Assembly: GCA_003231955.1 (NCBI GenBank)
Contig: QIKL01000021.1
Location: 1 to 42,899 of the forward strand
Length of the DNA stretch: 42,899 nucleotides
Source of the DNA: Candidatus Uhrbacteria bacterium
GTDB taxonomy: Bacteria; Patescibacteriota; Patescibacteriia; 2-12-FULL-60-25
Direction: 5' to 3'
How positions within the stretch are numbered: the first letter of the stretch is position 1; each line of letters starts with the position of its first letter. Made by a program: the position numbers and the translations under genes. The notes beneath the pieces were generated by a model, which was not told the origin of the DNA, did not search any database, and saw only the letters and a list, made by a program, of their open reading frames with translations. Below are positions 1-11,385 of this stretch, one piece after another.

Positions 1-46
1 TAGGTACTAGACTAGCATCTCTCTTATCTCTTCTTAATGCCAAAGA

Positions 47-340
47 CTAGAATTTTACTCTTGGCTCCTCTTCCTCTTTTTCTCCCTCGTCCGCGTCAAT
101 CTTCTTTTTAATGCTACCAAAATAACTTTCATCCAACTCAAATTCACCAGAACTTTTTTGTTTTTGTTCTTCTTGAAATCCGTCCAGCGTAATTTTGAAT
201 CTCCTATACAAAACATTAACCGTATTCCTGTTCACTCCGAACGATCTAGGCTGCCTGGATGGATGTCAAATCAGCTGAAAACATCTTAATATTTTTGTTT
301 ACCTTATGTCTTACGCTCCACAAATGCGGTAATTCCAACA
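47..340 (-). pseudogene. Decayed IS1595/ISXO2-type transposase remnant
   Basis: The readable part (codons from a GTG at 235 down to 47) gives a short protein with NRNTVNVLYRRF followed by GEFELDESYFG. These resemble the HTH and the first catalytic Asp region (ELDESYFG) of IS1595-family DDE transposases. Upstream, between about 265 and 340, another frame reads KMFSADLTSIQAA, which fits the segment expected just before the HTH. A stop and a frame change near 255-265 separate the two. The remaining DDE domain is missing after about 15 residues of charged sequence. It is therefore a broken, truncated copy, not a working gene. It lies directly outside the left inverted repeat of the neighbouring cassette and may mark a region that collects insertions. 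Family assignment rests on short motifs only. Confidence 0.6.
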
Positions 341-410
341 AGAAACGGAACGCTCCGCGCGTGAATTAGTGTTTGTTTTGAAAAAAAGGTTCGGATTTAG
401 TAAAATAAAG

Positions 411-548
411 CACCAGAATAAAAAATGTCGACATTTTGTCGACATTTTCTATTCTGGTGGAACTATACGATTCCGTTTAAACTTATTTAATCAAAAATTT
501 TTGAACTTTACGAGTGTCTCCGTGCTACCGCTTTGCAACGAACTATGC
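411..548 (+). repeat. Left copy of a 138-bp inverted repeat (palindrome outermost)
   Basis: This 138-nt segment recurs in opposite orientation at 3537-3674. Aligned by eye without gaps, I count 7 mismatches, so about 95% identity. Its outer 49 nt (411-459) form a near-perfect palindrome with 22-nt arms containing two GTCGAC sites and a 5-nt centre; one arm base is mismatched in this copy. The inner ~90 nt contain an A/T palindrome and no convincing ORF. With its partner it brackets 549-3536. No transposase is encoded inside the pair. Confidence 0.95.
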
Positions 549-640
549 CTGCGGAAGGCTTACTAAAAAAAAGAAAACTGATGTATTATCTCAAATAGTC
601 AAAGCCGTTCCTTGACAACTAAAAAAGGAGATAAAAAAAT

Positions 641-1054
641 ATGACGGATAAAAAGACAACTCAACACTCGCTCAAGAAAGACAAGTATGTGAATACCCGC
701 GGAGGTAATTCGCATTTTCTTGATATTTATTGCTGTAAGTGTAATCAGCATCTCGTCCTTTATCAAAAGGACGGGCATGGCAGTTTACTTCGGATGTATC
801 TGGACCGAATCCTCGAGCCACAAGAGTTTCTTCTCCTGCAATCAAAGGTAGGCAGTAAAATTGAAATGCCAAATCTAAAGTGTCCAAAGTGTAATGTACT
901 CATTGGTACACCAATGCTTTATAAAGCGGAGGGAAGGTTAGCGTTTCGACTCGTTCGCGGCTCGTTCGCAAAAAAGAAAAGTGAAGGCGTTTATCCACCC
1001 TTACACCAAAACCAATCCCATGGAAAAGGAGAAGGCGATGAAGACAGAAATTAA
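641..1054 (+). CDS. Zinc-ribbon protein of unknown function (first gene of the cassette)
   Basis: 137 aa. Two Cys pairs, CCKC at about residues 31-34 and CPKC at about 81-84, would form a treble-clef or zinc-ribbon site. The C-terminal tail is Lys/Glu/Gln-rich and low in complexity. I do not recognise the family. A strong SD (AAAGGAG at 624-630) precedes the ATG at 641. A TTGACA hexamer lies at 612-617, but a matching -10 is not clear. The last 17 nt overlap the start of the GTP-cyclohydrolase-like gene, so the two are probably translationally coupled. A binding or chaperone role for the downstream enzymes is possible but is inference only. Confidence 0.75.
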   Translation: MTDKKTTQHSLKKDKYVNTRGGNSHFLDIYCCKCNQHLVLYQKDGHGSLLRMYLDRILEPQEFLLLQSKVGSKIEMPNLKCPKCNVLIGTPMLYKAEGRLAFRLVRGSFAKKKSEGVYPPLHQNQSHGKGEGDEDRN

Positions 1055-1844
1055 GCCGCCGAACGTAATTGACATTTGCAAGAAAGCAAACATGTCCGTT
1101 GAAGATGTTAATGCTTTCCTCAATCTGTTGAAGCGTTCAACGGAGCCATTCTTAAAACGCATTAGCGTCATTGAGAACGGGATCATGCGCTACTACACAG
1201 TAGAAAGAAGGGGTATCGGTATCCTCAAAACCGAGCATGGAAAGTTTTGGCAGTATAGTTTTGCCATTGATGACCGTTGGGAGAAATACTCAGTAATCGT
1301 CAAAGCAGAGCTCGATAAAAACCTGCTCATCCCCGTGTTCAACAGTAAAGACAAACTTGTTTTGCGTACCGATTCTGGATGCGAAACAGGACAGGTTTTC
1401 GGCGATCTGACGTGTGAATGCCACGACCAGTTTCATCTCGCACTAAAGACGCTTGAGGAAATCGGAGAGGGAATGCTCATTAATATTCCACACCAAGACG
1501 GGCGTGAAATGGGACTAACCTTCAAACTAGCGACACTCTGGATTCAGGATGTACTTGAAATTAACACCGTGGAGTCAGCAACTTTGCTCGCTCCCAGCGG
1601 CGTGATCGACATTCGGACATATTCGGGCGTCATCTGTATATTAAAGTTCTTCGGCATCTCAAAAACATGCCGGATTAACTTGGTGACTAACAACCCCAAG
1701 AAAGCCAGGGTGTTTGCTGAGAACGGTTATACGATAGCGGATTATACCCCTATCGTTATCAAGCCTAATAAGCACACCGAAGCACACTTGAAAGCAAAGC
1801 AAGATTATCTTGGACACAAGGGACTCATCAAAAAAGGAGACTAA
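1038..1844 (+). CDS. GTP cyclohydrolase II-like protein, divergent active site
   Basis: 268 aa. The ATG at 1038 is chosen because AGGAG lies 6 nt upstream; longer in-frame starts at 981 (GTG) and 1020 (ATG) overlap the previous gene more. GTP cyclohydrolase II (RibA) opens the GTP ring to give a diaminopyrimidinone. The zinc ligands C115, C126 and C128 match E. coli C54/C65/C67 with identical spacing, and QDGR (153-156), DIR (191-193, with the family's Asp and nucleophilic Arg) and TNNPKK (217-222) are present. By alignment anchored on the preceding Lys and following QD, the active-site Tyr (Y105 in E. coli) is Leu167 here. An N-terminal ~100-residue region is longer than in RibA and unlike it. 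No other riboflavin gene is in the window, so a riboflavin role is doubtful. Confidence 0.8.
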   Translation: MKTEIKPPNVIDICKKANMSVEDVNAFLNLLKRSTEPFLKRISVIENGIMRYYTVERRGIGILKTEHGKFWQYSFAIDDRWEKYSVIVKAELDKNLLIPVFNSKDKLVLRTDSGCETGQVFGDLTCECHDQFHLALKTLEEIGEGMLINIPHQDGREMGLTFKLATLWIQDVLEINTVESATLLAPSGVIDIRTYSGVICILKFFGISKTCRINLVTNNPKKARVFAENGYTIADYTPIVIKPNKHTEAHLKAKQDYLGHKGLIKKGD

Positions 1845-1845
1845 G

Positions 1846-2686
1846 ATGAAAGCAAATGATCAAATCCTTGAACGAATGAAGTCGCATAACACGCTCTTGT
1901 GTTGTGGCCTTGATCCGGACATGAAGAAAATGCCATTTGAAATTATAGGAAAGCAAACTTCCGATGAGGACAAAATGTTTGAATTTCTTCGAGTCGTGGT
2001 TGATGTTACGGCATCGCATGTGTGTGCCTACAAGGCCCAAAAAGCTTTTTTTGATGTGTTGGCTGGTGGCCATGATGTTTTAAAAAAAAATAATTGGTTA
2101 CATTCACGCATCATATCCAGGTATACCTGTCATTGTGGATTGCAAGATTGGCGATATCGAAAACACGATGGCGGTGTATATTCAAAATCTGTTTTATTTA
2201 CTCCAAGCAGACGGCATCGTCATCAATCCTTACATGGGTGATGATGTCGTGATTCCACTTGCCGAACTGGTCGACAAGTCTATTGTAGTGCTCGTCAAGA
2301 CAAGTAACCCCTCAAGTGGAATTGTCCAAGATGTGGCACTTCAGAACGGCCAGCCACTCTGGCACCATGTGCTCAACCTCGTGGTGAATCGCTGGAATTG
2401 TAACACGAACATGATTCCTGTACTTTCTTCAACTGTCGGGCTAAACATGATGGAAATCCGATCGCTTATTCCAGATAGGATGCCGATTCTGCTTACAGGA
2501 GTCGGTGCACAAGGCGGTAACTATGCTGATTTGCGTAATCTTCTCAACTCCGAAGGTATTGGGGTATTCGTTAATTCGTCTCGTGGCATCCTCTACTCGC
2601 AAAGCCAGCAACCCTGGCGAATTGCGATTGAGGAAGCCGCGGTTGGATTGAAAGAAGCTCTAAATAACGAGAGGAGGATAAGATGA
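1846..2686 (+). pseudogene. pyrF: Orotidine 5'-phosphate decarboxylase (type 2), frameshifted in an A9 run
   Basis: OMP decarboxylase converts OMP to UMP. The first frame (1846 to about 2090) carries the substrate loop GLDPD (residues 21-25) and YKAQKAFF. The second frame, from about 2090 to 2686, carries the catalytic DxKxxD motif (DCKIGDI), NPYMGDD, KTSNPSSG, GVGAQGG and NSSRG, all typical of the mycobacterial-type PyrF family. The frames join at nine A residues at 2082-2090. Removing one A gives a continuous protein of about 279 aa reading LKKIIGYIHASYPGIPVIVD across the junction. Both halves keep all expected motifs, so either the break is recent, or it is a homopolymer sequencing error, or polymerase slippage on A9 restores the frame. 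SD AAAGGAG lies upstream, and the TGA stop overlaps the next ATG (ATGA). Confidence 0.85.
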
Positions 2687-3249
2687 GCAAGTTTCTACTT
2701 CTCTTGGGACCGTCAGGTGTTGGTAAAAGTTTGATCATCGAGGAATTGCTCCGACTAGATAGTAGGTTCGTTTACATTTCTCCATTTATGACTCGATCAC
2801 TTCGAGAAGGAGAGAAAAATAAAATCTCCATAAGTAGCGAAGAGATGGATGAAATGTGGAATAGTGGAGAGCTTTTGGTGATCAATAAACTTTACGGTAT
2901 TCGTTACGCAACACCTCGACTGCCAATAGTGCAAGCATTGGCACAAGGCAACTTTCCAGTGCTTGATTGGCCGATCAGTCGAATAAAAACGATGACGCAA
3001 GCGTTTCCGAATCAACTCTGCGTTATATATGTCTCGCCGCCTTCAATCGAAGCCTTACGGCAACGATTGACCAAAGACGGAAGAGACATGGACGGACATC
3101 GCTTACGAAGCGCGCGCGAAGAGTTGAAAGCATACGAATCTTCTCGATATATCGGAGTTTGTAATTTCGAGATTATCGCGGAAGAAAACCAAGTACCGAA
3201 AATCGCTCATGCGATCCATTCCAATTATCTCCAGTTCCTTCGTCAGTAA
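2683..3249 (+). CDS. Guanylate kinase-like NMP kinase
   Basis: 188 aa, close to the usual ~200 for guanylate kinase (GMP + ATP to GDP + ADP). The P-loop GPSGVGKS is at residues 9-16. A TRSLREGE segment matches the GMP-binding region, YGIRYATP sits where YGTS-type substrate contacts occur, and a lid-like segment with RLTKDGRDMDGHRLRSA follows. It overlaps the decarboxylase stop by four bases (ATGA), which implies coupled translation, and it is followed by an intrinsic terminator, so it ends the cassette operon. Differences from standard Gmk around the GMP site leave room for another nucleotide substrate. It is not evident from this window whether another gmk exists in the genome. Confidence 0.8.
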   Translation: MSKFLLLLGPSGVGKSLIIEELLRLDSRFVYISPFMTRSLREGEKNKISISSEEMDEMWNSGELLVINKLYGIRYATPRLPIVQALAQGNFPVLDWPISRIKTMTQAFPNQLCVIYVSPPSIEALRQRLTKDGRDMDGHRLRSAREELKAYESSRYIGVCNFEIIAEENQVPKIAHAIHSNYLQFLRQ

Positions 3250-3256
3250 TCCTAAT

Positions 3257-3309
3257 CTCGCAGTTCCATTTCAGAGATTTCTGAATGGACTGCGAGGTTT
3301 TCTTTTTTT
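3257..3309 (+). terminator. Intrinsic terminator of the cassette operon
   Basis: A long stem begins with CTCGCAG (3257-3263) and closes with CTGCGAG (3290-3296), with further pairing inside, and is followed by a T-rich run. It starts 8 nt after the guanylate-kinase-like gene ends. From here to the right repeat (3310-3536) I see AT-rich and pyrimidine-rich sequence with no supportable gene. Confidence 0.85.
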
Positions 3310-3536
3310 AGCAAGCCTCCCGCTCCCAAATATAATTTTAATGAGACCAACGAGAGCGGGGTGGAAATTCATTTTCCCCACACCCCTTTTTCTTCCCGCC
3401 CCGCTTGGACGAAACATTAGCACGTCTCCGCCTGCTCTAAATGAGCAGAACGCAGAAAGTAAAAATTTTTTTACATTTTTTGTTTTTCGCCCACTACTAT
3501 TTTTTAATCTTAAAGGAAAGAAAAATTCTTCTTGAT

Positions 3537-3674
3537 GCATAGTTCGTTACAAAGCGGTAGCATGGAGACACTCGTAAAGTTCAAAAATTTTTGATAAAAT
3601 AAGTTTGAACGGAGTCGTATGGTTCCACCAGAATAGAAAATGTCGACAAAATGTCGACATTTTCTATTCTGGTG
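3537..3674 (-). repeat. Right copy of the 138-bp inverted repeat
   Basis: Inverted partner of 411-548, same length, 7 mismatches by eye. In this copy the outer palindrome is perfect and slightly longer: 24-nt arms at 3624-3647 and 3653-3676 around a 5-nt centre. The outer arm includes the 3' ACCA tail and last acceptor-stem bases of tRNA-Val. The palindrome could also act as a terminator or processing signal for that tRNA. Confidence 0.95.
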
Positions 3675-3746
3675 GACGTTGCAGGATTCGAACCTGCGAC
3701 CTCTCGGATGTGAACCGAACGCTCTAACCAACTGAGCTAAACGTCC
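3670..3746 (-). tRNA. tRNA-Val (anticodon CAC), CCA encoded
   Basis: Read on the minus strand, the 7-bp acceptor stem GGACGTT/AACGTCC, the D-stem GCTC/GAGC, a 5-bp anticodon stem with loop TTCACAT (anticodon CAC, reading GUG) and the T-arm GCAGG-TTCGAAT-CCTGC all form. A discriminator A and genomic CCA follow, giving 77 nt. The CCA tail is part of the right repeat's palindrome, so the tRNA gene and the element boundary overlap. Confidence 0.95.
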
Positions 3747-6257: not shown

Positions 6258-7409
6258 TCAATGTTGCTCTAACGGCGTCGACGTTGCAGCGCCTGAAGGA
6301 TTCCCAGATACTGACCCATCCAGCATAACCTCAATCCACGTCGTCCCGCGATCAAAATAAACATCCGTCCCGTCGAGTCCTTCAAATTGGACATGCACAC
6401 CAAGCGCGCGTGTCCAAATAACATCAAATTTCCTACCATCTCGATACAGCGTTGCCTTCCCGCGCCCAGTTGTCCGTATCTTGAGCCGTCCTTCACTATC
6501 TATTACGGATCCGTTTGTGTGTAGAACTATAATATTCTTAGCCTGAACCTGCACTCCATCCCGATCCTTTTGGAGCCGACCTGCCTCAGATCGAAGATAG
6601 ACATTCTTTGAACGTTTATACGTCCAAGCTACGCTATATGAATATGAATGACCATAATTCAGTGCCGGCCCGTTCTCGGTTCCACGCACGCTTGATGTCG
6701 GGCTCTTTAACGGCTCGTCGGCCTTATAATGCCAACTGCGAAAATGGCCAACTCTGAAACGCTTTGACGCATCGGCCTCATGAAGCAAATCCGTACGTGT
6801 GAATACATTATGCGGTGCAGTATGGTTAGCGCTACGCCAAAAATATTTTCCGTTGAAAAACTCATTCAGATCACGAAATCCCGCCAGATTCGAAATCTCG
6901 TTCAAACTCTGCGGGCTACCTCCGACGTGCGCATACACCGCATTCAGACCATCGGCATAGTCCACAAAATACGGACGAGCACTTCGTACTGGACCGATCG
7001 CATCTATAGTCGTCGTCGCATCAAAAACGAGGAGATATCTTGAAATCCCACCTTCCACTGGAATCTCAAAGGCAAGATTCGCATGCGCTGGACCGGAAAG
7101 CGGACGTGCACCTATATAGTTCTCAACCATCACGGCATATGGCTGGAGTTCCGCATTGACTGGTTGAACAAAGATACCGTCCAGAGCTCGAGGGACAAGA
7201 ATATCCGTCGACGTCGCGGATATCACGACAGTCGAACTAGTTTCAACCGGAAGCGCAGTAGAAGTAAACTTGCGTCCCTGACCGGAAATAGCAAACCATA
7301 AAAGCCCAACAATGACGGCAATCAACAAAACGGCCCCAAATGCCAGAAGCGGCCAGGACCGTTTGATCAGGGTCTCAATTGAAATACGGACCTCACGATG
7401 TTCCTCCAT
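6258..7409 (-). CDS. DUF3048 (YerB-like) membrane-anchored surface protein
   Basis: 383 aa from the ATG at 7409 (MEEHREV), 7 nt after the bL25 stop. A longer in-frame start at 7511 would run through bL25 and is rejected. A GGGTGA that includes the bL25 stop may serve as SD. One transmembrane segment (~residues 18-38) is followed by a Ser/Thr-rich linker. Then come the DUF3048 signatures: QPYAVMVEN, ARPLSGPAHANLAFEIPVEGGISRYL, GPVRSARPYF and a second C-terminal domain with a GTTWIEVML ending. Such proteins are extracytoplasmic and often lipid-anchored, with function unknown. Here the anchor looks like an uncleaved signal-anchor. It is co-transcribed with bL25. Confidence 0.85.
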   Translation of the reverse strand: MEEHREVRISIETLIKRSWPLLAFGAVLLIAVIVGLLWFAISGQGRKFTSTALPVETSSTVVISATSTDILVPRALDGIFVQPVNAELQPYAVMVENYIGARPLSGPAHANLAFEIPVEGGISRYLLVFDATTTIDAIGPVRSARPYFVDYADGLNAVYAHVGGSPQSLNEISNLAGFRDLNEFFNGKYFWRSANHTAPHNVFTRTDLLHEADASKRFRVGHFRSWHYKADEPLKSPTSSVRGTENGPALNYGHSYSYSVAWTYKRSKNVYLRSEAGRLQKDRDGVQVQAKNIIVLHTNGSVIDSEGRLKIRTTGRGKATLYRDGRKFDVIWTRALGVHVQFEGLDGTDVYFDRGTTWIEVMLDGSVSGNPSGAATSTPLEQH

Positions 7410-7416
7410 GGATATG

Positions 7417-8106
7417 TCACCCAGCGACCTTCTTGGCGGCGGATTCATCCGGCTTGTCCACTTCTCCCTCGGCTTTTTTGATCTCGGCTTCAGTCTTAAT
7501 CGTCGAAACATCAGCAGCAGACATTTCTTCGAGCTTCTTTAGTTGCTCATCAGTAAGCGGCGCGACGACCGTAGCGACGGTCACATCTGGATTTTCTTCG
7601 ATCTTCACACCCTTTGGGAGATTAAGCGAAGCAATTGTGATAGCCTTATCAAAAGTAGTTAGCATCGAAAGATCAACCACAATCTCATGCGGCAAATCTG
7701 CTGGAAGACACGTGACTGTTAGTGCGTCAAATGAATGAACGAGCGTTCCAGCTAATTCTTTGACCGCCTTGGATTCGCCAACAAACTTAAGCGGCACTTC
7801 AGTCGTCAGTTCTTCGTTCATACGAATCTGCTGAAAATCAACATGTACAGGAGCCATTGTAATCGGATGAACCTGAACCTCTTTGAGGAGAACCTTAACA
7901 GGCGCCGCACCATCTAATGTCACGTCGACGAGGGATGAAGTCCCTGCATTTCGGAGCAACTTACGAAAATCCGAAGCATTCACTTGAATAGCCTTGGATT
8001 CAATACCATGGCCATACATAATCGCCGGAATATTCCCGGTGGCCATAACCTGTTTTGCTTGTCGACCGAGCGCCGTCCGACTCTGTGCTGCGAGTGTGTA
8101 TGACAT
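7417..8106 (-). CDS. rplY: 50S ribosomal protein bL25 (Ctc-type, long form)
   Basis: 229 aa. bL25 binds 5S rRNA in the large subunit; the long Ctc form has an N-terminal 5S-binding domain (LAAQSRTALGRQAKQVMATGNIPAIMYG) and a C-terminal beta domain (TTEVPLKFVGE...). Both are present, plus a ~40-residue acidic/Lys tail. The ATG at 8106 lies 15 nt from a consensus -10, leaving a very short 5' UTR (~9 nt) with no SD. The stop is TGA. Confidence 0.93.
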   Translation of the reverse strand: MSYTLAAQSRTALGRQAKQVMATGNIPAIMYGHGIESKAIQVNASDFRKLLRNAGTSSLVDVTLDGAAPVKVLLKEVQVHPITMAPVHVDFQQIRMNEELTTEVPLKFVGESKAVKELAGTLVHSFDALTVTCLPADLPHEIVVDLSMLTTFDKAITIASLNLPKGVKIEENPDVTVATVVAPLTDEQLKKLEEMSAADVSTIKTEAEIKKAEGEVDKPDESAAKKVAG

Positions 8107-8121
8107 AAAATCAGTGGCAGA

Positions 8122-8150
8122 ATTATAAGAGAATCAGGCATTCTTGTCAA
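8122..8150 (-). promoter_or_regulatory. Consensus sigma70-type promoter for bL25
   Basis: TTGACA (complement of 8145-8150), 17-nt spacer, TATAAT (complement of 8122-8127): both hexamers are exact. It overlaps the 3' end of the upstream zinc-ribbon gene. Transcription should start about 9 nt before the bL25 ATG. Confidence 0.9.
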
Positions 8151-8475
8151 GCAAACCTTTGCAAAAGGCTAAACTCCCACGCTCCATGAGTCGATGCACA
8201 GCAATACATTCGTCACTCGAAACTGAATCTGCATTCGTAAATCGCAATGCGTCCTCAATTTCAAGATCTGTAACGAGTCCAACAGAACTAACAGATCCAT
8301 TAGATTCAAGGACGACAGCGAGAACCGACTGCCCACAAGACTGGCATGAACAGTGAAAAAGTCGCGTTGAGCCATATTCACCAAGCAAGCGGACTCTCGT
8401 CGCATCGTATGCGGTGTGGCAGAGCGGACAGTGCGCAAGCAATCGCTCGGAGTGCGGCTGATCCATATATTTCAT
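8134..8475 (-). CDS. Small zinc-ribbon protein, function unknown
   Basis: 113 aa from the ATG at 8475; a TTG at 8502 is possible. Two CxxC pairs, CPLC at about residues 16-19 and CQSC at about 43-46, suggest one structural zinc site. A C-terminal region (SSVGLVTDLEIEDALRF...) looks globular and helical. No family recognised. It lies between the receiver gene and bL25 on the same strand, but the strong internal promoter at 8122-8150 means bL25 need not depend on it. Confidence 0.7.
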   Translation of the reverse strand: MKYMDQPHSERLLAHCPLCHTAYDATRVRLLGEYGSTRLFHCSCQSCGQSVLAVVLESNGSVSSVGLVTDLEIEDALRFTNADSVSSDECIAVHRLMERGSLAFCKGLLDKNA

Positions 8476-8510
8476 GCTACCTGCGGGAATGATATTCCGC
8501 AATAACTAAA

Positions 8511-8541
8511 GATCGACGAACCCGATATGGGAACGTCGATC
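8511..8541 (-). terminator. Inverted repeat downstream of the receiver gene, possible terminator
   Basis: Arms GATCGACG and CGTCGATC, an AA/AA internal loop, then CCC/GGG around a 5-nt loop. On the minus strand it is followed by CTTTAGTT, a weak U-tract. It lies between the stop of the receiver gene (8589) and the start of the zinc-ribbon gene. Confidence 0.5.
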
Positions 8542-8588
8542 AAAAAACGGTTGAGATCGGTCGTGCTCGTAACAAGGTCTCGTAGTCG

Positions 8589-8984
8589 CTACAAACCCAG
8601 TACGTCGGTTACTAACTTTATAATATCCATCTTCCTTTGGACGCGACTATTGCATCCTGCGGCAAGAAGCTTGACGTTCATCTCTTCGTCGGATGATGCA
8701 GCAAACATCATTCCGGTGTAGGTTTTTCGGATCTCCCGAGCCAAATCTACCATATTTGCAACGTCGAGAGGTAACGATGCTAAATCGTAAATTGGAACGG
8801 ATCCGTCGAAAACAATCACTGTGAATCCACGAGGATCTTCTCTATACGCTTTCCATCCAGCATCAATGGTTGGCGCAATAACGAGACGGATTTTCTTCCC
8901 AAAGAGGCGACGAATGGCGCGCTGCCAAAGAGGGTTGTCTTCAATATAGAGAACGCTCCGTACCTCTTTTGAAGTCTCTATCAT
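8589..8984 (-). CDS. Stand-alone response-regulator receiver domain
   Basis: 131 aa. The ATG at 8984 is favoured because AGGAGAAGGA lies just upstream. Acidic pocket E15-D16 after a hydrophobic first strand, phospho-acceptor candidate D60 (VIVFDGS), S97 at the end of strand 4 and K118 fit the receiver (CheY-like) fold. No output domain and no sensor kinase is nearby. It could act by protein contact on a partner such as the envelope machinery next to it (rodA is directly upstream on the same strand), but that is speculation. Confidence 0.75.
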   Translation of the reverse strand: MIETSKEVRSVLYIEDNPLWQRAIRRLFGKKIRLVIAPTIDAGWKAYREDPRGFTVIVFDGSVPIYDLASLPLDVANMVDLAREIRKTYTGMMFAASSDEEMNVKLLAAGCNSRVQRKMDIIKLVTDVLGL

Positions 8985-9086
8985 ATTAAATCCTTCTCCT
9001 AGAACCGGAAGACATGTCCGGTACATATCAAAGTACAAATGATTGATATCGATACCATGAAACAACCATTTCGTCAAAACGCTGCG

Positions 9087-10190
9087 TCAAAAAACATTAC
9101 GCCCATGAACGGCGATGGATTCCGCAATGGCAATCGCGATAAACGTTACAACAATGGATGACGCGGCAGCTGATAAAAATGGTAATGGAATCCCCGTGAC
9201 TGGCATAATTCCAAGATTCATTCCAGCATTAATAACAAGATGAAAGAGAATGAAAGCCGCAATCATAACGAGTAAGATACCAGCAAACGCGTCTTCCGCC
9301 TCCATCGCGATCCGAATGAGGCGGTACAATAAAAACAAAAAAGTCACGAGGATCACACCGACTCCGACGAAACCAAGTTCTTCTCCGAGAACTGCAAACA
9401 TAAAATCTGTCGAGGCTTCAGGCAAAAAACGTAAGCGCGCTTGCGACCCTTCCCCGATCCCCTTGCCGAACCATCCACCAGAACCGATGGCAATTTGCGC
9501 TTGTGCAACGTTATATGATGCACCGTATGGATCCGCAGCTGGATTGATGAACGAGGTGATTCGATCGCGCTGATATTGTCGAAGACCGAAGCTCCAGACG
9601 AGCGCACTCGCCGTCAAAAAAGTAAGAAGTAAAATCCACCATGCATGACGCGGTAGTCCACAAAAAATGACAGCGGAGATCCAAATGGCAACGAGGACCA
9701 TGGCAGAGCCAAAATCAGGTTGAGCAAGGACAAGCGCCATATAGGCACCCGTCGCAAGCGCACTTCCAAAAAGCGATGTCCACGTCAGCCGTTTATGCGC
9801 GTGACGCGCAAAATATGCGGCGAGGAAGATAGCAAGAAATATTTTTGCGATCTCGACAGGTTGAAACGAAAGTGGACCTATGACAAACCAACGACCAGCA
9901 TTTCGCGCCGTAGTCCCCATAACAAGAACAAGAGCGAGCATCCCAGCGCCTCCGAGATAAATCGGCAATGCGAAACTTCGAATCCGACGATAATCCAAAA
10001 ATGGTGCACCAAGCACGATGACAATACCAATGACGACGGCAAAGAGTTGCTTCTTTAGCTGAAAAAAATCCGTGCTCCCCTGCGAGATGTTAATACCATA
10101 AATCGCAAGCAAACCTATTGCCGTCAACGCAAGCGCAGAAAAGAAGAGAGCCCAGTCGTACCGAGCATATATAGCAATCCAGCGTCGCAT
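9087..10190 (-). CDS. rodA: Rod-shape-determining SEDS glycosyltransferase RodA
   Basis: 367 aa, a typical RodA length. SEDS proteins polymerise lipid II into glycan strands at the inner membrane, with a class B PBP as partner (none seen here). About ten hydrophobic helices are visible. Family segments include RWFVIGPLSFQPVEIAKI, LAQPDFGSAMV, the extracytoplasmic loop with GSGGWFGKGIGEGSQARLRFLPEASTDFMFAVLGEELG, and the C-terminal TGIPLPFLSA. It resembles RodA more than FtsW. With the MurA fusion 3 kb away it indicates a peptidoglycan wall. Confidence 0.93.
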   Translation of the reverse strand: MRRWIAIYARYDWALFFSALALTAIGLLAIYGINISQGSTDFFQLKKQLFAVVIGIVIVLGAPFLDYRRIRSFALPIYLGGAGMLALVLVMGTTARNAGRWFVIGPLSFQPVEIAKIFLAIFLAAYFARHAHKRLTWTSLFGSALATGAYMALVLAQPDFGSAMVLVAIWISAVIFCGLPRHAWWILLLTFLTASALVWSFGLRQYQRDRITSFINPAADPYGASYNVAQAQIAIGSGGWFGKGIGEGSQARLRFLPEASTDFMFAVLGEELGFVGVGVILVTFLFLLYRLIRIAMEAEDAFAGILLVMIAAFILFHLVINAGMNLGIMPVTGIPLPFLSAAASSIVVTFIAIAIAESIAVHGRNVF

Positions 10191-10247
10191 GCTCCCGAGC
10201 TTGCCACACCAGCCTCACCTTGTCATTCATTCATTTTGCTCGGAATT

Positions 10248-11135
10248 TTATTTAAAATACTGCGTTGGGAGATACGCGGACGGATTGAGCAGATTAACCT
10301 GCGGAATTACCTTTGTCTTACTCACGCTCGGCAAATTATCCATCCACACCATCTGAATAGGCCGCTTTTCACCTGGCTGAATATTTTTTACAGTAATCTG
10401 ATTAACCGCGATAATACTATTCCCCCGGTATAGCTGAACAATAAGATTAACTTTCCAAAATCCATACGCGGTATGATTATCGAGCGTAAAAGATGTCTGA
10501 CCAATACGTTTTTTTCCGATTACGATATTTGTATCGTATGTAATATTGTCGAACGTCATATGGAATCGTTCCGCAGCAAAATTCTTATAACTCACACCGA
10601 CAAATTTTGAATCGACACGATGCCATCGAACATTGTCAACGACTAACGTTGCACTCCGCCCACCGAGCGCCTTTGGCATATATCCAAGCTCTGTCAGAAC
10701 CTGTGTGCTTTGCGGAAGAACGTATCCTGACCGTACGGGAGTTTCTTCACCAGATATATTAAAATGATAATTAAATTCAACCCACCATTTGTCATTCGGA
10801 TTCGTGACCTTGACCACCATGTTGTACCGATGATCCGTAGACTGGAATACCGAAACATCAGACGTGGAAACATTTTGTGGACGAGCACTGCCAAGTGCAG
10901 TCAAAAGCTGCTGATTCAATGCAACCTGCCGCGTAATACGAGACTCCCGCGGATAAGAAATCGCATACGCATCAAGCGCACCCCATGCCGCGTATCCCCA
11001 AAACAACACATTTAACCCGATAAGAGATCCGTACAGCAACCGACGTAAAAGCCGTTGATTCCGTATCCAAAATGACGCTACTTTGAGCTCTCCCGTGGTA
11101 AAACCACCAATCGGGATGTCATCGTTATTTGCCAT
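10248..11135 (-). CDS. Membrane-anchored protein of unknown function
   Basis: 295 aa from the ATG at 11135 (MANNDDIP). One transmembrane helix at about residues 33-52 (LLYGSLIGLNVLFWGYAAWGALDAY), then a ~240-residue extracytoplasmic region rich in beta-type sequence with VVKVTNPNDKWWVEFNYHF and WKVNLIVQLYRGNSIIAVNQI. These look like two immunoglobulin-like or FxLYD-type modules. No enzyme motif. The start follows an extended -10 (TGGTACACT) at 9 nt and a 28-bp near-palindrome. It is divergent from gyrB and directly upstream of rodA, with a 57-nt gap. Confidence 0.75.
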   Translation of the reverse strand: MANNDDIPIGGFTTGELKVASFWIRNQRLLRRLLYGSLIGLNVLFWGYAAWGALDAYAISYPRESRITRQVALNQQLLTALGSARPQNVSTSDVSVFQSTDHRYNMVVKVTNPNDKWWVEFNYHFNISGEETPVRSGYVLPQSTQVLTELGYMPKALGGRSATLVVDNVRWHRVDSKFVGVSYKNFAAERFHMTFDNITYDTNIVIGKKRIGQTSFTLDNHTAYGFWKVNLIVQLYRGNSIIAVNQITVKNIQPGEKRPIQMVWMDNLPSVSKTKVIPQVNLLNPSAYLPTQYFK

Positions 11136-11144
11136 ACTATTTTC

Positions 11145-11153
11145 AGTGTACCA
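11145..11153 (-). promoter_or_regulatory. Extended -10 element of the 10248-11135 gene
   Basis: Minus-strand TGG followed by TACACT, 9 nt before the ATG at 11135. Start of transcription at or just before the ATG is predicted, so the message would be leaderless or nearly so. Confidence 0.55.
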
Positions 11154-11181
11154 CGCTACATTGCGTATACGCGATGTAGCG
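11154..11181. promoter_or_regulatory. 28-bp near-perfect palindrome in the gyrB divergent region
   Basis: Arms CGCTACATTGCGTA and TACGCGATGTAGCG, 14 nt each with one mismatch and no spacer. It sits in the -35 region of the leftward gene and about 205 nt before the gyrB ATG. No U-tract follows, so an operator is more likely than a terminator. The rest of the 250-nt intergenic region holds nothing else clear. Confidence 0.6.
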
Positions 11182-11385
11182 CGTCTACACGCCTTAATTC
11201 GCATGTGAAAACCATTCAATCCGTATTGTTTGCAAAAACAATTTTCGCAATTATGATGAGCACTCAACGTTCATCTGAACTTTCTAATGCCGCTACCGTT
11301 GCCTTTCCAAAAATATGATAATCTCACATACCCCCTTCACGAGACCGCGGGACCACGCTACCATCTCCGCATCTTAACTATACTT

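Follow-up and report, generated by a model that had tools for sequence, protein, structure and literature searches.

The staphylococcal cassette chromosome (SCC) occurs in tandem copies and in copies without a recombinase, and has a direct-repeat core at the 3' end of rlmH, while the large serine integrases of phages and of integrative and conjugative elements (ICEs) work with a single attachment site attP. Tycheposons, described from Prochlorococcus and other taxa, are tRNA-bounded cargo elements of 4-200 kb with a tyrosine recombinase (PMC10872708). Here we analyse a block of four genes lying between long inverted repeats beside tRNA-Val(CAC) in a 42,899-nt stretch of Candidatus Uhrbacteria bacterium (GenBank assembly GCA_003231955.1, contig QIKL01000021.1), hereafter the window, which is one whole contig (C2) of a genome of 837 kb in 64 contigs. 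The block is very probably the cargo module of a small element that uses a large serine integrase to target the 3' ends of tRNA genes, and that belongs to a family widespread in the Patescibacteria.

Results

Integrase family, layout and target

The integrase gene is absent from the window itself. In relatives (contigs L038 and L039) it encodes a Resolvase, a Recombinase and a zinc-ribbon domain, its PDB match is the A118 integrase, and its nearest NCBIfam models are CcrB (119.6 bits, cut-off 900), CcrA (68.3 bits, cut-off 700) and XisF, with scores far below the cut-offs. Integrase relatives were identified in 121/381 genomes of the class (E-value at most 1e-60) and in 59/287 genomes of the phylum (E-value at most 1e-90). 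The genomes are mostly metagenome assemblies, and single-contig genomes carry integrase elements too (L196-L200). The loci around 67 integrase copies were examined, and the counts of the next paragraph are those of the 50 copies flanked on either side by 400 bp or more; they are lower bounds, since some contigs end inside arms.

Inverted repeats of their own enclose 46 of the 50 copies. A tRNA (43) or tmRNA (1) 3' end is adjoined by 44 copies, all 44 of which are convergent with it, 36 with an overlap of 3-6 nt. Directly beyond the integrase module, 29 of the 50 show a second inverted-repeat pair that bears cargo. The elements measure 2.3-8.2 kb and read, outward from the tRNA, as tRNA, core, P' arm, integrase gene, P' arm, inverted core, P arm, cargo, P arm, core and host sequence. 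The core is usually 5-6 nt long, equals the 3' end of the target tRNA and changes with it: CACCA at Arg, Leu, Lys and Val, TACCA at several Glu, CGCCA at Ser, AGCCA at Asn and some Gln, and CTGC at Trp. A short core common to attB, attL and attR is found in relatives, as is an empty site. The P half-site resembles the tRNA T-arm (GGTTCGnATT.. ahead of the core), a likeness in sequence only.

Some individual loci deserve mention. The closed genome G545 has two complete elements next to each other, at tRNA-Leu and tRNA-Gln (L197), and at L213 a single element sits at a tmRNA 3' end instead of a tRNA. LOOT RNA is present at 3730-3850 of L215, and a group I intron lies at 5545-5743 of L151 near an integrase arm, at a place without a tRNA call, the tRNA being perhaps split by the intron.

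Second attP and insertion as one unit

The attP of a putative circular intermediate was predicted by fusing the P arm of the far end with the P' arm of the near end across the shared core. In 21 loci this predicted site is the reverse complement of the integrase/cargo junction (median identity 100% over 82-89 nt, range 90.5-100). Judged from these sequences, each element appears to carry two attP sites (P.core.P') in opposite orientation that separate the integrase and cargo modules, which alone would explain the inverted repeats around both. One attP would be consumed at integration, giving attL and attR, and the other would persist as the junction between the modules; the arm copies may be kept identical by gene conversion or by renewed recombination. 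At the far end, the five bases of the element's own tRNA end reappear in 12/25 loci (mean 4.0 with shuffled assignments, maximum 10 in 10,000), and 7/24 have an intrinsic terminator beyond the far end, compared with 5% at random places.

An occupied and an empty site could be compared at tRNA-Leu(GAG), which in genome G339 is parted from its terminator by an insert of 4,917 bp holding both modules (L129; integrase module 6346-8097, cargo 8092-11268). In G199, a congener of G339, the flanks are contiguous with an overlap of GCACCA, that is, the site is empty; G387 likewise matches an empty site near the tRNA. This insertion as a single unit weakens the explanation that integrase and cargo modules are two independent inverted-repeat elements, both favouring tRNA 3' ends and adjacent by chance. 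Such independence would fit the separate inverted-repeat pair of each module, the cargo of the window and of L040, which stands without an integrase gene, and the varying cargo beside homologous integrase modules, but in the 21 loci an inverted attP forms the inner junction and the core is common to both modules, and we consider it unlikely.

The copy in the window

The elements of the frame in the window, including those of a second cassette to the left of the four genes, are as follows (PWM, position weight matrix).

3670-3746, minus strand: tRNA-Val(CAC), the predicted integration target, whose terminal CACCA is the core and is overlapped (5 nt) by the right arm
3537-3674, minus strand: right inverted-repeat arm; its outermost 5 nt are the tRNA-Val 3' end
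3624-3676, minus strand: palindrome H1, with core CACCA (3670-3674), putative P' half-site GAATAGAAAATGTCGACA, 3-nt loop, inverted P' half-site and inverted core (3626-3630)
3593-3630, minus strand: putative P half-site of the right arm (TGGTGGAACCATACGACTCCGTTCAAACTTATTTTATC); 7.2 bits with a PWM from other loci, rank 5 of about 85,700 positions
411-548, plus strand: left inverted-repeat arm (palindrome plus P-type arm); about 93% identity runs on to 557
411-459, no strand: palindrome H2, the same 49-nt P'/P' module as H1, between the first and second cassettes
379-416, minus strand: putative P half-site of the second, distal cassette; no other position in the window scores as high with the PWM (20.9 bits, the next being 8.5)
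27-259, minus strand: IS1595-like transposase fragment of the second cassette (NF033547, E-value 1.7e-4), frameshifted and cut by the contig end

Each arm combines three parts: CACCA, which is both the core and the tRNA 3' end; two opposed P' half-sites forming a palindrome; and one P half-site. An initial annotation, made from the sequence alone, had described two 138-nt inverted repeats with seven mismatches and their palindromes outermost, enclosing exactly one four-gene operon with its own terminator and no transposase. This description was confirmed, with 411-548 and 3537-3674 (minus strand) identical at 131/138 ungapped positions; the third gene is frameshifted. About 4e-58 such arm pairs are expected by chance in 42.9 kb. 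The 25-bp stem of H1 is perfect, the loop has 3 nt, and the DNA fold is -28.1 kcal/mol (z -14.7). The P' half-site of H1 agrees at 12/14 nt with that of the arm next to tRNA-Leu on C27, another contig of this genome, a level reached by 1e-4 of random 14-mers. The P half-site at 379-416 (minus strand) is 86% identical over 50 nt to the same contig C27, and that of the right arm (3593-3630) is 74% identical over 58 nt to the junction of L039. The contig starts within the second cassette. The initial annotation had noticed neither this cassette nor the overlap of the right arm with tRNA-Val, nor that the repeat has no further copy in the genome assembly.

An empty tRNA-Val(CAC) site is seen in 18/18 relatives listed from the same family: the tRNA ends in TCCACCA and runs straight into different sequence, in most of them a simple hairpin terminator, and in several prmC is adjacent. 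A role of the palindrome as a terminator was considered, given a terminator-like match at 412-458 on the minus strand, and was rejected: the 138-nt repeat is restricted to this locus, with no further copy in this genome assembly, and the relatives have a different, ordinary terminator after tRNA-Val.

The IS1595-like fragment immediately left of the cassette raises a further explanation, that the cassette is a mobile insertion cassette with IS1595-type terminal repeats moved by the neighbouring transposase, and passenger genes that lack a transposase and lie between long inverted repeats do fit the definition of such cassettes. Against it, 29 loci have such inverted-repeat modules directly beside a serine integrase at a tRNA end, the element ends include the 3' terminus of the tRNA that is targeted, which is unexpected for a DDE transposase, both modules entered G339 as one unit, and the transposase fragment lies inside the next cassette. 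As its ends follow the tRNA and an integrase, reading the cassette in this way was rejected as highly improbable. A third proposal, an invertible switch in which recombination between the repeats flips the four-gene block and so controls its expression, is equally improbable: inverted attachment-like sites do flank the block and serine recombinases can invert DNA, but the terminator and a promoter-like sequence of the operon are both situated inside the arms, so that a flip would not obviously switch it, integrase orientation is fixed in the relatives (44/44) despite the inverted arms, and no intact integrase of the family was found in this genome.

Cargo operon and its relatives

The operon of the window comprises the following.

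641-1054, plus strand: zinc-ribbon protein, first cargo gene; relatives head other cassettes, dN/dS 0.06-0.11
1020-1844, plus strand: GTP cyclohydrolase II (GCH II)-like protein; PF00925, E-value 5.6e-21, 60-86% identical to proteins of L038-L044
1846-2686, plus strand: orotidine-5'-phosphate decarboxylase (pyrF_sub2); TIGR02127, E-value 3.9e-34 on the second part, frameshifted
2683-3249, plus strand: guanylate kinase-like protein; PF00625, E-value 2e-16
3256-3308, plus strand: operon terminator, from sequence; DNA homology to the cargo of L038 and L040 stops here (3308/3330)

The frameshift in pyrF lies in a run of nine A (2082-2090), one more than the eight required by the single open frame of the relatives, and may be a sequencing error, a pseudogene or a case of transcriptional slippage. 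Pairwise dN/dS values of 0.05-0.19 for all four genes (window decarboxylase left out) indicate that the cargo is under purifying selection. No pyrE scored above cut-off in this genome. Elsewhere in the same genome, at 7345-9063 of L090 (contig C24), a guanylate kinase-like region is fused to a dihydroorotate dehydrogenase with ferredoxin-type clusters; this fusion gene belongs to another cassette with a zinc-ribbon gene.

In a scan of one genome per species the GCH II-like protein was found on the seven other contigs L038-L044, in Magasanikbacteria, Yanofskybacteria, Azambacteria, Andersenbacteria and others. All four genes occur in the same order on five of them (L038, L039, L040, L043 and L044), the zinc-ribbon gene of L039 being cut by the contig end; L041 has the four in order with a broken kinase match, and L042 shows the first two genes only in the stretch seen. 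Long inverted repeats surround the cargo of L040, which adjoins tRNA-Lys and is without an integrase gene. The contigs of L038 and L039 are broken within the left arm or ahead of it. They retain the right arm, directly next to which lies a further inverted-repeat pair, which encloses one gene, the large serine integrase, and whose far end overlaps the CACCA of tRNA-Arg. The tRNA-Arg targets of these cargo relatives are GCG and TCG, both beside integrase modules. L041, L042, L043 and L044 have cargo genes with no detectable arms, so there the genes lie outside such a frame or the frame has decayed. DNA homology between the window and L038/L040 spans the cargo (574/597 to 3308/3330) and excludes the arms, and the same cargo therefore sits in different frames. 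Given four different tRNA genes, distant lineages and 60-86% protein identity, we infer horizontal transfer of the cargo.

As a separate observation, the integrase frame of L038 (3411-5036) and L039 (3253-4824) crosses the arm and goes on into the tRNA on its antisense strand, and integration would hence alter the integrase C-terminus. A phage origin was also considered and rejected, since no relatives of the GCH II-like protein or the integrase were found in viral contigs by a single-protein scan and phage GCH II matches are only 27-30% identical.

Cargo variety and turnover

Two genomes of one genus, G232 and G202, have in common a tRNA-Gln site and a homologous integrase module and carry unrelated cargo; the cargo also differs between G111 and G287. 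The distal flanks are non-homologous in both pairs, so neither provides a clean empty site. Across loci the cargo includes an ABC transporter, a trypsin-like protease, a polyprenyl synthase, a radical SAM enzyme, an NYN-domain protein, a LexA-fused methyltransferase with a restriction enzyme, a candidate defence protein (PDC-S02) and a zeta-toxin-like protein. The cargo of L138 and L145, at tRNA-Asn and tRNA-Trp, includes restriction-modification genes and the candidate defence protein PDC-S02. Many cassettes have a Cro/C1-type helix-turn-helix (HTH) regulator of about 70 aa by the integrase-side arm, and in others, including that of the window, a zinc-ribbon protein is found there. The HTH protein was seen in L122, L138, L139, L141, L143, L152, L155 and L157, by a Pfam match for L141 and by similarity for the rest. 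Our guess is that the Cro/C1-type or zinc-ribbon protein acts as a regulator or directionality factor.

The initial annotation had proposed a non-autonomous mobile cassette that moves metabolic genes. In substance this holds, with cargo relatives between other long inverted repeats at other tRNA genes, other cargo in the same kind of frame and empty tRNA-Val sites in relatives, a check that the annotation itself had suggested, and the repeat, confined in this genome to a single locus, is neither a common dispersed terminator nor part of a fixed synteny. What it missed is the probable mechanism, a tRNA-targeted serine-integrase element in which the repeats are paired attachment sites and the cassette is one of at least two tandem modules.

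Proposed origin of the window copy

As the cargo module of such an element, the window copy would derive from an integrated form that has lost its integrase gene, with the 49-bp palindrome of two opposed P' half-sites as what remains of the integrase module and two cargo cassettes standing in tandem behind tRNA-Val. Its mobilisation would require an integrase acting in trans. Decayed or cut integrase remnants occur in the same genome at tRNA-Leu(CAG), tRNA-Tyr(GTA) and tRNA-Leu(TAA). In view of the 5% arm divergence, the frameshifted pyrF and the failure to find an intact integrase in the host genome, the copy looks old, stranded and immobile unless an integrase arrives.

Several points weigh against this assignment. 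One of them is that no intact integrase of this family was found in the host genome. The cassette's own P half-sites are weak, with PWM scores of 7.2 and 4.5 bits, and its distal end lies past the contig end, which puts the insertion boundary there out of view. There is only one fully resolved pair of occupied and empty sites. Finally, two equivalent inverted attP sites should allow both orientations of the integrase module; its orientation is fixed in all 44 cases, so the second attP may not be functional.

Two complete inverted attP sites separating integrase from cargo make a natural form of recombinase-mediated cassette exchange conceivable, in which cargo would be swapped between integrase modules, stacked at tRNA ends and interchangeable across the phylum. 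We put this forward tentatively, as a possibility somewhat short of an even chance.

Discussion

How Patescibacteria acquire genes is poorly understood, and the family is present in about one fifth to one third of the sampled genomes. The element marks its own ends to the base, and its cargo is metabolic, transport-related, restriction-modification or candidate defence. No description of the family was found in the literature searched as open-access full text, so it is apparently undescribed; the paired inverted attP sites and the split into integrase and cargo modules are what was not found described. The paired layout offers a testable mechanism for cargo exchange and, if cassette exchange is real, genome-reduced Patescibacteria would have integrase lineages for it that serve a wide range of tRNAs. 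A predicted attP and a tRNA attB come with every integrase, and the enzymes could be of use as integration tools.

The element belongs to the broad class of integrative elements with large serine integrases. With those of phages and ICEs (A118, SPbeta YokA) it has domain order and detectable homology in common, although phage and plasmid records reach only about 22-29% identity to the family integrase. Mobile insertion cassettes are similar in having passenger genes between inverted repeats, without a transposase and presumably moved in trans; they differ in that the ends described here form a serine-integrase attachment system that restores the tRNA 3' end, not those of a DDE insertion sequence (IS). 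The window repeats match arms associated with serine integrases, and no arm copy was found on another IS in this genome. Integrons likewise combine interchangeable cargo, palindromic attachment sites and a recombinase, but that recombinase is of the tyrosine and not the serine type, and here inverted sites stand on both sides of the cargo; no attI/attC arrangement was seen, no attC scan having been made.

Tycheposons are also bounded by tRNA genes, carry variable metabolic and other cargo and reside in streamlined genomes, but they rely on a tyrosine recombinase where the Patescibacteria family has a serine integrase. We know of no inverted attP pair in tycheposons. The likeness to SCC lies in a recombinase of the large serine type, with CcrB, XisF and CcrA as its nearest models, in a short direct-repeat core and an integration site at a conserved gene's 3' end, and in the tandem and recombinase-less copies seen in both. 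Unlike SCC, the family targets many tRNA and tmRNA genes (44/50) and not rlmH, its elements span only 2.3-8.2 kb, its integrases score far below the Ccr cut-offs, and a second, inverted attP appears to lie between integrase and cargo. By analogy, the layout is closest to that of an SCC element moved to tRNA targets, with the tycheposon as the nearest tRNA-targeted analogue.

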